From Desulfotignum sp. (GTDB lineage: Bacteria; Desulfobacterota; Desulfobacteria; Desulfobacterales; Desulfobacteraceae), in contig JAABSA010000033.1 in assembly GCA_011390635.1 (NCBI GenBank), positions 1-45,549 on the forward strand: a stretch of 45,549 nt of DNA, read 5' to 3'. Shown piece by piece: positions 12,846 through 16,351 of this stretch. The notes below the pieces were generated by a model. That model saw nothing but the letters and a program-made list of their open reading frames with translations. It did no database searches and was not told the origin of the DNA. How positions within the stretch are numbered: position 1 is the first letter of the stretch; every line of letters begins with the position of its first letter. The translations under genes and the position numbers were made by a program.

Positions 12846-13973
12846 TCATTTTTCAATGGCCTGAAATTTTTTCATAAATTTTGTATCAATATAATGCTTA
12901 ATTGTAAAGGCTAGCCTGCCGCCGAATACGATGTTTTTTTTCTTGAGCACGCCTTTTCCCCCGCCAAGATTAAACACCAGAAGGTATTCAGGTCCTGGAT
13001 CAAACGGCATCAGGGCTTCTTCCTCCAGGGCTGCCATCAGATTGTGAAGCAACACCGGATTTTGCCGCACCGCATACACCCCCACCTTGTCCAGCGGCTG
13101 GCTTTGAAAATAGATACAGTCACCGCCACCAAAGATCTGCGGATATGCAACGCTCTGAAGATATTGGTTGACCAGCAGGCCCTTGTCAGGTCCCACGGGC
13201 AGACCGGAATCCTCAAAAATGGGGGATGGCACAACACCGGCTGCCATAAAGGTAAAATCCGTGTCATATTTTTCCCCGGAAACCAGGGTAATATCTGTGT
13301 CGGTTACTTTCTGCACCCGGGCATTTTCAAAAATTGCAATCTTTCTTTTTTCCAGAACTTCTTTTACCCGCCTGGAAATTGTGCTGGAAAATCGTCCCAT
13401 GAACCGGTTTGCACAAAAAATGCGAATCAGGGGCATGTGGACGCCGTTGTTTCTGGCCAGCTGCCAGACATTGCCGGCAATCTCAGCAGACGACGGTCCT
13501 CCGCCCACTATGCTCACCTGCACCGGTTTCTGACTGAACAGGTGCAACAGTTTTTCTGATGCCTCCAGCAATTTTTCAATGGGTTTGACCGGATACACAT
13601 TTTCCAGCTTTTTTGCATCTGCACTGCCGGCAGCTGCCATGGAGATATAAGAGCCTGCATTACAGGAAACCACATCATACAAAACCTCATTGCCGGACTT
13701 TGTAATCACTTTTTGGTTTTCCGGATCAATGCGTGTCACATAGTCCTTGACAAACACACCACCCTGTTTTTCCACCACATCCCGGGTGGCAAACCGAATC
13801 TGCTCAGGCGAATAGGTTTGGCCCAGCATACCCGGTCCCATGCCTGAATAATAATGGTACATTGACGGCCCGATTACCGAAACCCGGTATCCTTTTTTGA
13901 CAAACCGGCTGATGTTTTCCAGCGTAACCATGTGGGCATGGCCGCCCCCCACCAGCACCAGATGTTTTCCCAT
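12846..13973 (-). CDS. FAD-dependent pyridine nucleotide-disulfide oxidoreductase, SelD-associated type
   Basis: 375 residues with an N-terminal FAD motif (HLVLVGGGHAHMVTL), SVIGPSMYHYYSGMGPGMLGQTYS, a second nucleotide motif (VQVSIVGGGPSSAEIAGNVWQL, residues ~155-176), FMAAGVVPSP, and GLLVNQYLQSVAYPQIFGGGDCIYF. This is the NDH-2/SQR-like group, and especially resembles the FAD domain that in many bacteria is fused to or encoded with SelD (TIGR03169 type). It lacks the redox-active CxxxxC of glutathione reductase. It would oxidise NAD(P)H and pass electrons to a quinone, ferredoxin or rubredoxin. CAGGAGA precedes the ATG. Its neighbour upstream is the predicted selenoprotein. Confidence 0.85.
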   Translation of the reverse strand: MGKHLVLVGGGHAHMVTLENISRFVKKGYRVSVIGPSMYHYYSGMGPGMLGQTYSPEQIRFATRDVVEKQGGVFVKDYVTRIDPENQKVITKSGNEVLYDVVSCNAGSYISMAAAGSADAKKLENVYPVKPIEKLLEASEKLLHLFSQKPVQVSIVGGGPSSAEIAGNVWQLARNNGVHMPLIRIFCANRFMGRFSSTISRRVKEVLEKRKIAIFENARVQKVTDTDITLVSGEKYDTDFTFMAAGVVPSPIFEDSGLPVGPDKGLLVNQYLQSVAYPQIFGGGDCIYFQSQPLDKVGVYAVRQNPVLLHNLMAALEEEALMPFDPGPEYLLVFNLGGGKGVLKKKNIVFGGRLAFTIKHYIDTKFMKKFQAIEK

Positions 13974-14012: not shown

Positions 14013-14843
14013 TCACAGGGTGTCCATCAATTGTCCCAGACGTGCCAAATGATTTTTTTCATCTGCTGCAATTTTTTGCACAATGGCCAGTGACTGCGGG
14101 TTTTTCACACGGTCTCCCACCCGCTGGTACAGGTCCAGGGCCTGGGCTTCGATGGACATGGCCAAAGAGATCACTTCGGTTTCAACAGACAGGTCCGGAT
14201 CAAACGATGCAAGATACTGGTCTGTGGTCATCCCGCCTTCCATGGCTGATGCCTGCACCATATCTGCAAATGCTTCCCGGGATATGGGTTCCTCCGTAAG
14301 TTCCGTATAGGCGGCAAAAATAGCATCCTGGTGCTTGGCCTCAATGGCCCCCAGTTTTTCAAACAGATCCTGCACCGACCGTGTTTGGGCCTTGCCTGCC
14401 ATATCCATATAAAATTGCTGCAGCCCCTGTTCCAGAGAAAAGGCCACCGTAAGAAAATCCTCAGGGGTTTCTCTGCCGTCGAACAGGTCCATGCCAAGAC
14501 TTTGGGGACCCACAGCAGTCTTGCCCTCCCAGGCCTTGATACCGCCGGATAGGTTATACACCTGGCTGAATCCTTTGCCCGCCAGCATCTGAGCAGCCAC
14601 CCGGCTGCGCCCGCCCACGGCTCAGTAAACCAGGGTGGGTTTGGCCGGGTCCAGTTCAGACAACCGGTCCGACAGATGGGGCAGCGGGATCAGCACCGCG
14701 CCGGGAATATGGTTTTCCCGGTATTCACCCGGCTGACGGACATCCAGTATGGTAATTTCTTCCGGTGTATGGTCTGATATCATCTGTTCAGCTTGTTTGT
14801 AGTCACGGGATTTTACCGGGGTAAAAAACTGCATCCATTTCAT
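14013..14843 (-). CDS. selenoprotein: rhodanese domain (Sec in the active-site loop) fused to a ferritin-like domain
   Basis: One 276-residue product if the in-frame UGA at 14624-14622 is read as selenocysteine (residue 74). Residues 1-108 are a single rhodanese domain: ITILDVRQPGEYRENHIPGAVLIPL, PTLVY-U-AVGGRSRVAA, NLSGGIKAWEG. The UGA replaces the persulfide-carrying cysteine of the Cys-x-x-G-x-R loop. Residues ~120-276 form a rubrerythrin-like four-helix bundle with SLEQGLQQFY, AIEAKHQDAIF, SIEAQALDLY and AADEKNHLARL, i.e. two E-x-x-H pairs for a di-iron site. Both sides of the UGA are in one frame, equally conserved in style, and a SECIS-like hairpin follows. The ATG overlaps the stop of the SagB-like gene by 4 bases. 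Likely cytosolic sulfur/peroxide redox enzyme. Without Sec the gene would be broken at its catalytic residue. Confidence 0.87.
14593..14624 (-). promoter_or_regulatory. UGA selenocysteine codon and candidate bacterial SECIS hairpin
   Basis: UGA occupies 14624-14622. Thirteen bases later comes a perfect 6-bp stem GCAGCC/GGCUGC (14608-14603 with 14598-14593) closed by the tetraloop GGGU (14602-14599). The loop starts 19 bases after UGA, within the range for bacterial SECIS elements, and has G at its first positions, as SelB recognition needs. An outer UGAGC/GCUCA pairing (UGA itself with bases to 14590) can extend the structure. The hairpin is inside the coding sequence, as usual in bacteria. 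Confidence 0.8.
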
Positions 14844-16351
14844 GACAGATATCCTTTATTCTTTACAGGACCCGCAGACACAGCGTAGAGCAGAACACTG
14901 CCCGACTGCAGATCCAACAGTTCAACGGCCTCTTTGTCATACATGGCACCGATGCCGCAGCATCCCAGTTCCAGTTCCTGGGCTGCCATATATATGCGCT
15001 GCCCTGCCCTGCCGGCATGCATCATCACATGCCGGTATCCCCTGGCGCCCAGTGCCGCTTCAACCGCAGCAAGATCCGCCAGAAACAAAAAATTCATGGC
15101 AGCCCGGCTGATCCATGACTGGTCCAGGCAGACCCGGGCCAGTTCCTGTGCAAAAGCGCCCTGTTCCATGCATGCCATGGTCGATCCATCCTGTGAAAAA
15201 GCATATATCCCATCGGATAGTCCTTCCAGGTTCTGGCAGATCATTGCCGGTACCAGAAACGCTTTTGCAGCAGCACCCGGTTCCAGAGGGTTCTGTCCCG
15301 CACCCATGCCCGTAAAAACCCGTTCCAGAAAACGTGCCCACACAGAACGGGGCAGCATTTTGGTGGTAAAATTACGGCGGGAGCGCCGGTGGAACACGGC
15401 ATGTACAAAAGATACATCCAAACGCTTTTCACCCGTTGGCACCGCTATGGTGGCAACGGGCTCCTTTTCAAAAACCCGGGCATCTGTATCCGGCAACCCG
15501 GGACTGGTAATGGCAGATCCAGCCTGAAAAGCGTTTTCGAGAATCGCATATTCCATCGGGGCAGGCTGTCCGGACACCGGCTCTGCAGACTGATACGGTA
15601 TTGTCTCTACATCAGGCCCTCTGGATGTTTCGTGGCCCAGCCGGACGTATGCCAGGGGTACCTCCTGTGAAGCATCCAGGCCCAGGCGTTTCCCCAGTTG
15701 CCGATCACCAAAATCATAACACAGTGTGGCAGCAGCACCGACGGCTCTGGCGGCATTTACCACGGCCTCACCCAGGTGTCCGGCATCCAGCAGCAGGTAT
15801 CTGAAGGCCCGTTCCCGATATTTCCAGGCAGCATGATAAAAAATTCCGGTGATGACCAGGCCTGTTCCTGAATGGGCCTGCCCGTCGGCTACCACAGCAG
15901 TATCCAGGGGCCGGGAATTGATTTTTCCCAAAAACCCCTGAACCAGATCACAATAATACACCCCTGTGTCAATGCCGGCTGCCCCATCGCCTGACAGGTA
16001 CAACTGGCAAGGATAGAGCCCGCCTGCTGAAGGCACGCTGCGGAAAAAAATGCCCCGGGACCTGTCTGCCAGGGTCACCCCGTAGGACAAAGACAGGATT
16101 TGACACACCCGTTTGAAATCCAGCCCACGCCTGTCCTCCACCTGTCTGCCATCCAGCGCCTCTGCCACACACGCATCAAGATTATCCAACTCCGGATTGA
16201 TTGGTATCTTATCCAGATATTCATAGCCCTTGAAAGGTAGGGGATATCTGGAAAAATCCAAAGAATGGGGAGAAATCCGGTTGCGGACATGACAGGTATG
16301 CGCATGGTACCGGGTTGCAGAGACAAGCGGAGATGTGTCTGGTCTGCTCAT
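14840..16351 (-). CDS. SagB/ThcOx-type nitroreductase-family oxidoreductase (two tandem domains)
   Basis: 503 residues with two nitroreductase-like halves. First half: DRRGLDFKRVCQILSLSYGVT, FFRSVPSAGGLYPCQLYL (FMN-binding SAGGxYP block), YYCDLVQGFL, ITGIFYHAAWKYRERAFRYLLLDAGHLGEAVVNAARAVG. Second half from ~residue 320: FHRRSRRNFTTKMLPRSVWARFLERVF, GIYAFSQDG, AALGARGYRHVMMHAGRAGQRIYMAAQELELGCCGIGAMYD. This is the SagB/ThcOx form, FMN enzymes known for oxidising azolines in peptide natural products, but many members have other roles. No RiPP precursor, cyclodehydratase or peptidase is nearby; all neighbours are redox proteins. The ribosome site is weak. Family is firm; substrate unknown. Confidence 0.85.
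   Translation of the reverse strand: MSRPDTSPLVSATRYHAHTCHVRNRISPHSLDFSRYPLPFKGYEYLDKIPINPELDNLDACVAEALDGRQVEDRRGLDFKRVCQILSLSYGVTLADRSRGIFFRSVPSAGGLYPCQLYLSGDGAAGIDTGVYYCDLVQGFLGKINSRPLDTAVVADGQAHSGTGLVITGIFYHAAWKYRERAFRYLLLDAGHLGEAVVNAARAVGAAATLCYDFGDRQLGKRLGLDASQEVPLAYVRLGHETSRGPDVETIPYQSAEPVSGQPAPMEYAILENAFQAGSAITSPGLPDTDARVFEKEPVATIAVPTGEKRLDVSFVHAVFHRRSRRNFTTKMLPRSVWARFLERVFTGMGAGQNPLEPGAAAKAFLVPAMICQNLEGLSDGIYAFSQDGSTMACMEQGAFAQELARVCLDQSWISRAAMNFLFLADLAAVEAALGARGYRHVMMHAGRAGQRIYMAAQELELGCCGIGAMYDKEAVELLDLQSGSVLLYAVSAGPVKNKGYLS

Follow-up and report, generated by a model that had tools for sequence, protein, structure and literature searches.

Rhodanese-like selenoproteins are already described in five forms, two of which (forms 2 and 4) carry a UxxG motif, according to the accessible part of a 2026 review (PMC13188914). 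In excerpts of two further papers, a sulfurtransferase and a rhodanese-like domain appear among the putative selenoproteins of one deltaproteobacterial genome (PMC8318568), and a "sulfurtransferase homologous to a rhodanese-like protein" is listed (PMC5029168). The gene described here resembles forms 2 and 4, as that part of the review presents them, in its PF00581 domain and in a Sec residue within UxxG (here U-A-V-G), a likeness of domain and motif. The deltaproteobacterial proteins are of the same kind by description, and the excerpts name no domain fusion.

The locus lies in a window of 45,549 nucleotides from Desulfotignum sp., the whole stretch of DNA that was analysed. On its minus strand, positions 14013..14843 hold a single gene of 276 aa, defined by its frame, domain matches and alignment, in which UGA74 is a predicted Sec codon and a rhodanese is fused to a predicted di-iron ferritin-like domain, with an FAD/NAD(P)H oxidoreductase gene next to it. 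The frame opens at the ATG at 14843, reads MKWMQFFTPV...KPTLVY and meets an in-frame TGA at 14624..14622; beyond it the frame continues as AVGGRSRVAAQMLAG... and closes at a terminal TGA at 14015..14013. The original prediction that the frame crosses a TGA at the catalytic position of a rhodanese was borne out when the frame was re-read: the sequence is TLVY-TGA-AVGGRSRVAA, and frame and homologues place codon 74 (14622..14624, minus strand) at the head of the U-A-V-G-G-R loop. The span first proposed, 14593..14843, covered codons 1-73, the TGA and a hairpin, but the gene extends to 14013 and includes a second domain; both this di-iron domain and the adjoining oxidoreductase gene had been missed. 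A window-wide read-through scan for TGA-interrupted frames listed 60 raw candidates, this gene among them. Gene prediction with TGA treated as a stop splits the protein, so that it is easily mis-annotated.

The rhodanese is one half of the fusion protein. It matches PF00581 over residues 16-107 (14523..14798, minus strand; Pfam 74.5 bits, cut-off 22.2), and residues 129-272 (14028..14459, minus strand) match the rubrerythrin/ferritin-like family PF02915 (Pfam 49 bits, cut-off 22.8). A comparison of the rhodanese domain with solved structures brought up chains annotated as FAD-dependent oxidoreductase and CoA-persulfide reductase, and also BpPRF, a persulfide dioxygenase-rhodanese fusion with a non-haem iron oxygenase as its iron partner. 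The C-terminal domain can be aligned with TM1526, a ferritin-like protein of known structure (PDB 1vjx). In an alignment of 51 homologues, with Sec written as C, position 74 is invariant together with G77, R79, S80 and R81 of the same loop, and further invariant rhodanese residues include D34, R36, E40, H45 and G48. The C-terminal domain holds its own invariant set across these sequences, namely E138, E168, H171, E202, E232, E262 and H265. Within it, E138, E168xxH171, E232 and E262xxH265 form an E/ExxH/E/ExxH series, the ligand pattern of di-iron four-helix proteins, and the domain is predicted to be of the di-iron rubrerythrin/ferritin-like type.

The downstream gene at 12846..13973 (minus strand) is assigned to the FAD/NAD(P)H oxidoreductases by Pfam (PF07992). 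Such a gene comes next, on the same strand, in 69 of the 73 distinct loci whose downstream sequence extends for 600 bp or more, the exceptions being L082, L095, L100 and L106. This count was made from 93 rows, leaving out the window's own gene, two partial copies, two copies near contig ends and 12 duplicates, and dropping three further loci with less than 600 bp downstream. The best NCBIfam match of the oxidoreductase is TIGR03169 (Nterm_to_SelD), with a score of 240.7 bits (cut-off 310), which makes it a relative rather than a member of that family. Across 81 aligned copies a single Cys is invariant, in a GGGDC motif, and no Cys pair is conserved; a Cys-pair relay is thus not evident.

On the upstream side, a gene for a SagB-type nitroreductase-fold dehydrogenase (14840..16351, minus strand) overlaps the selenoprotein start through an ATGA. 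Its SagB family match exceeds the cut-off (134.7 bits vs 78.4), and a gene of this type lies upstream in part of the related loci only. In one Desulfotignum, represented by L054 and L026, a SagB-like gene is itself split by a TGA (L054:2276-2278). This TGA sits in a variable linker, with no Cys there in three aligned relatives, and the gene is probably disrupted rather than Sec-encoding.

These features suggest a possible mechanism. UGA74 would be read by SelB with Sec-tRNA(Sec) by way of the downstream hairpin, and the resulting selenolate may attack either a sulfane sulfur, as persulfide or polysulfide, or a peroxide, yielding Se-S or Se-OH. Electrons from the adjoining flavoprotein would reduce this product, while the di-iron domain may clear peroxide or O2, or help to oxidise the bound sulfur. 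By removing reactive sulfur and oxygen species, the gene pair would shield sulfate reducers. A persulfide or peroxide role coupled to the flavoprotein is offered tentatively, as somewhat less than an even prospect, and the explanation as a whole, a Sec74 fusion acting as a flavoprotein-coupled persulfide/peroxide enzyme, falls just short of evenly balanced. That the two genes form a selenium-dependent sulfur/oxygen defence module, in which persulfide is processed at selenium with di-iron redox chemistry by an enzyme type undescribed within the literature searched, seems rather unlikely on these sequence data. The fusion and its conserved flavoprotein neighbour provide a concrete, testable hypothesis on a part for selenium at the junction of sulfane-sulfur and oxygen chemistry in anaerobes.

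Of the other functions considered, an oxidative-stress peroxidase or iron-handling protein survives best, as a possible reading on the unlikely side. Here Sec and the di-iron centre would both act on H2O2 or O2, with the rhodanese fold a mere scaffold. The invariant ligand residues of the rubrerythrin/ferritin-like domain are consistent with such a role, as are the ferredoxin and rubrerythrin genes found downstream in the window and in Desulfotignum loci. Against it, the rhodanese domain retains many invariant residues too, and outside Desulfotignum a rubrerythrin relative occurs within the flank examined in few loci (L075, L097, L099, L101 and L104).

A part in selenium delivery is improbable. 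The rhodanese would then carry Se(0) or perselenide, and selenide for SelD would be made by the flavoprotein, a relative of the domain fused to the N-terminus in some SelD proteins. The TIGR03169 match points this way, and NADH dehydrogenase-like domains are by far the commonest SelD fusions in the part of PMC4561486 consulted. The distribution of the genes argues otherwise: selA is over cut-off in 57 of 59 genomes, the window's own included, and one of these 57 (G058, 100% complete) has no match to the fusion protein at E <= 0.001, which suggests that Sec can be made without it. A supplier of Sec that itself depends on Sec would involve a circularity as well, of a kind for which SelD is nonetheless a precedent.

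The preferred reading, a Sec-containing fusion enzyme coupled to the flavoprotein, depends on how codon 74 is decoded. The original prediction looked for Cys or UGA at this position in homologues, and 121 of 122 related loci carry one or the other: TGA (Sec) in 91 and Cys in 30. The single unaligned locus, L112, has TGA there in a BLAST-based reading. The 122 loci include some fetched by two routes; once identical downstream sequences are merged, 78 Sec and 29 Cys sequences are left. Of the 65 public-contig loci, two partial matches (L113 and L114) were not counted. The position was read in fetched loci only, which comprise 30 of the matches from the 59-genome search. The phylum-wide search contributed its 30 best-scoring matches, among which the window gene recurred; the 29 new loci divide into 13 with TGA and 16 with Cys. 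The search query had C at position 74, so that TGA was not favoured by the search. Both TGA-bearing and uninterrupted forms occur across the 59 genomes (own included), the orthologue has one in-frame TGA in all 12 other same-genus genomes (two copies partial), and no internal stop interrupts those Cys homologues that were read. UGA74 is almost certainly a selenocysteine codon, judging from these comparisons. A sequencing error was rejected on the 12 same-genus orthologues, and genome-wide TGA recoding because the gene's own terminal stop is TGA and the internal TGA is replaced, in the loci read, by Cys only.

A SECIS-like hairpin lies at 14593..14608 (minus strand), with GCAGCC at 14608..14603, a GGGT loop at 14602..14599 and GGCTGC at 14598..14593. 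The perfect 6-bp stem with its GGGU loop, 13 nt past the UGA, was confirmed as first described, RNAfold yielding the same stem. Every distinct Sec gene except L033, which lacks a perfect core stem, forms all five core pairs (65 of 66), compared with 6 of 13 Cys genes. The Ala83 codon is GCT in 65/66 Sec genes and in 8/13 Cys genes, and in four Sec genes codon 79 is CGA and codon 84 is TCG (Ala to Ser), a two-sided change that preserves the pair. These counts were set against synonymous nulls that count related sequences as independent, ignore shared ancestry and take codon usage from the same genes. Over 2000 rounds of recoding of the 66 Sec genes, the core stem formed in 1.3 genes on average and in 7 at most. 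In a register-free search, 77 of 78 Sec genes had a qualifying hairpin, where the null gave 23.6 on average and at most 34; among the Cys genes 16 of 29 had one, where the null gave 9.6 on average and at most 16. The loop starts 19, 20 or 22 nt past the UGA in 75 of these 78 Sec genes; L134 is the one without a qualifying hairpin, and L135, L147, L149 and L157 have the stem in a shifted register.

The hairpin is conserved beyond coding need. Cys genes too exceed the null mean in the register-free test, which is a point against. Minimum free energy separates the two classes weakly, in a coding stretch that folds well anyway: folding energy reaches p<=0.05 in 46/78 Sec and 12/29 Cys genes (Mann-Whitney p=0.0005 on z-scores). 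Some Cys genes (L039, L108) retain the full hairpin and look like recent Sec-to-Cys changes.

The original prediction expected selA, selB, selC and selD in the genome and took a lack of selA, selB or selC as evidence against Sec. Three of the four are present over cut-off (selA 601.4, selB 341.7 and selD 369.5 bits); selC was not found in the own assembly as searched. The selD gene (C26:12486-13409) has one in-frame TGA, as do four of ten FlpD-family matches in this genome (on C17, C55, C28 and C7), so that further selenoproteins are likely. The FlpD family (FrhD, pfam02662) is given with CxxU among Sec families in the part of PMC2398784 available.

An Rfam search of the own assembly, with 150 of 544 candidates scored, returned no selC over cut-off; eight of its ten matches were fetched and are ordinary tRNAs, and none lies near selA or selB. 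Neither the selC stretch of another genome of the genus, G011, nor its 8.4-kb selC flank matched the own assembly as DNA queries, in searches that had no positive control genome. Elsewhere in the genus, selC is over cut-off in 8 of the 12 other assemblies and below it or absent in 4. In G011, selC stands about 3 kb from recA, and the genes that come after it score above the cut-offs for PepT-like, LarC and RecA. The PepT-side flank is common to the other seven selC-bearing genomes, and the stretch through recA also occurs in G003, the only one of them from which more of the region was retrieved. The gene recA is near-universal. In the own assembly, rated 96.4% complete, it is missing as well, with a best score of 24.7 bits against a cut-off of 325.3. 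Because recA, a neighbour of selC in G011, is missing too, an assembly gap is the likely reason for the missing selC.

The contrary view, that the TGA is a true stop and the locus either a pseudogene or a pair of genes, in which a 201-aa ORF starting at a GTG (Val76) comes after a 73-aa peptide, accords with the mechanical ORF list, which cuts the gene in two at codon 74, and with the missing selC, but is extremely improbable given the lone TGA in all 12 same-genus orthologues, the uninterrupted Cys homologues, the invariant residues that stay in frame past the TGA across 51 aligned sequences, and a hairpin above its synonymous null. The Cys-or-UGA homologues, the uninterrupted Cys forms and the conservation of the hairpin thus support a single Sec74 protein of about 30 kDa, as originally proposed.

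In a sample of 395 genomes of the phylum, 104 contain relatives of the fusion that match at E <= 1e-40. Public contigs that carry them are labelled Desulfotignum, Desulfobacula, Desulfopila, Desulforhopalus and Candidatus Electrothrix, among others, and none of the 572 plasmid records with a match reaches 80% coverage of the query. On a maximum-likelihood tree built from 75 Sec and 28 Cys sequences, 103 distinct ones in all, 16 Sec/Cys changes are required, and well-supported branches force 10 of these; with shuffled labels the average is 24.7. Four genomes (G027, G019, G028 and G013) have selA and a Cys form as their best-matching copy, so that Cys forms also occur in Sec-competent lineages. 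In the cable-bacteria group, the close relatives L109, L111 and L086 differ in having Sec or Cys at the catalytic position. One Sec copy, L096, comes from a contig labelled Neomarinimicrobiota and is nested among Desulfobacterota in the tree, reflecting either a binning error or a transfer. The occurrence of Sec and Cys forms among close, mostly selA-bearing relatives makes this family a good natural test of the advantage of Sec over Cys.

No NCBIfam model reaches its cut-off for the window protein. The rhodanese-related (seleno)protein family NF041203 has the rhodanese domain in common with it, but the match is weak (37.4 bits vs a cut-off of 115) and membership was set aside; its motif is CxU according to a table in the accessible part of PMC13188914, unlike U-A-V-G here. 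NF045694 (TsoB rhodanese/DsbD fusion-like selenoprotein) is likewise a Sec rhodanese fusion, with another partner by name, and membership was also set aside at 21.7 bits against 805. The literature search, within the sources accessible, found no paper that joins rhodanese, rubrerythrin and selenoprotein. "Ferritin" and "rubrerythrin" each occur 0 times in the main text of PMC13188914, and a rhodanese-rubrerythrin/ferritin-like fusion is not described in the consulted portions of PMC13188914, PMC9312934, PMC8318568, PMC1794560, PMC1088965, PMC5029168, PMC2398784, PMC8346489, PMC10599522 and PMC4561486. Sec rhodaneses are already known, and their fusion with a di-iron domain was not found named in NCBIfam or in the literature searched, so far as the sources were accessible. 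By their chain names, the solved structures 5ve3, 3nta and 8a56 join a rhodanese in one chain with an iron oxygenase or an FAD reductase. The protein described here differs from these in that its predicted iron domain is a ferritin-like four-helix domain and its flavoprotein is encoded by a separate gene.
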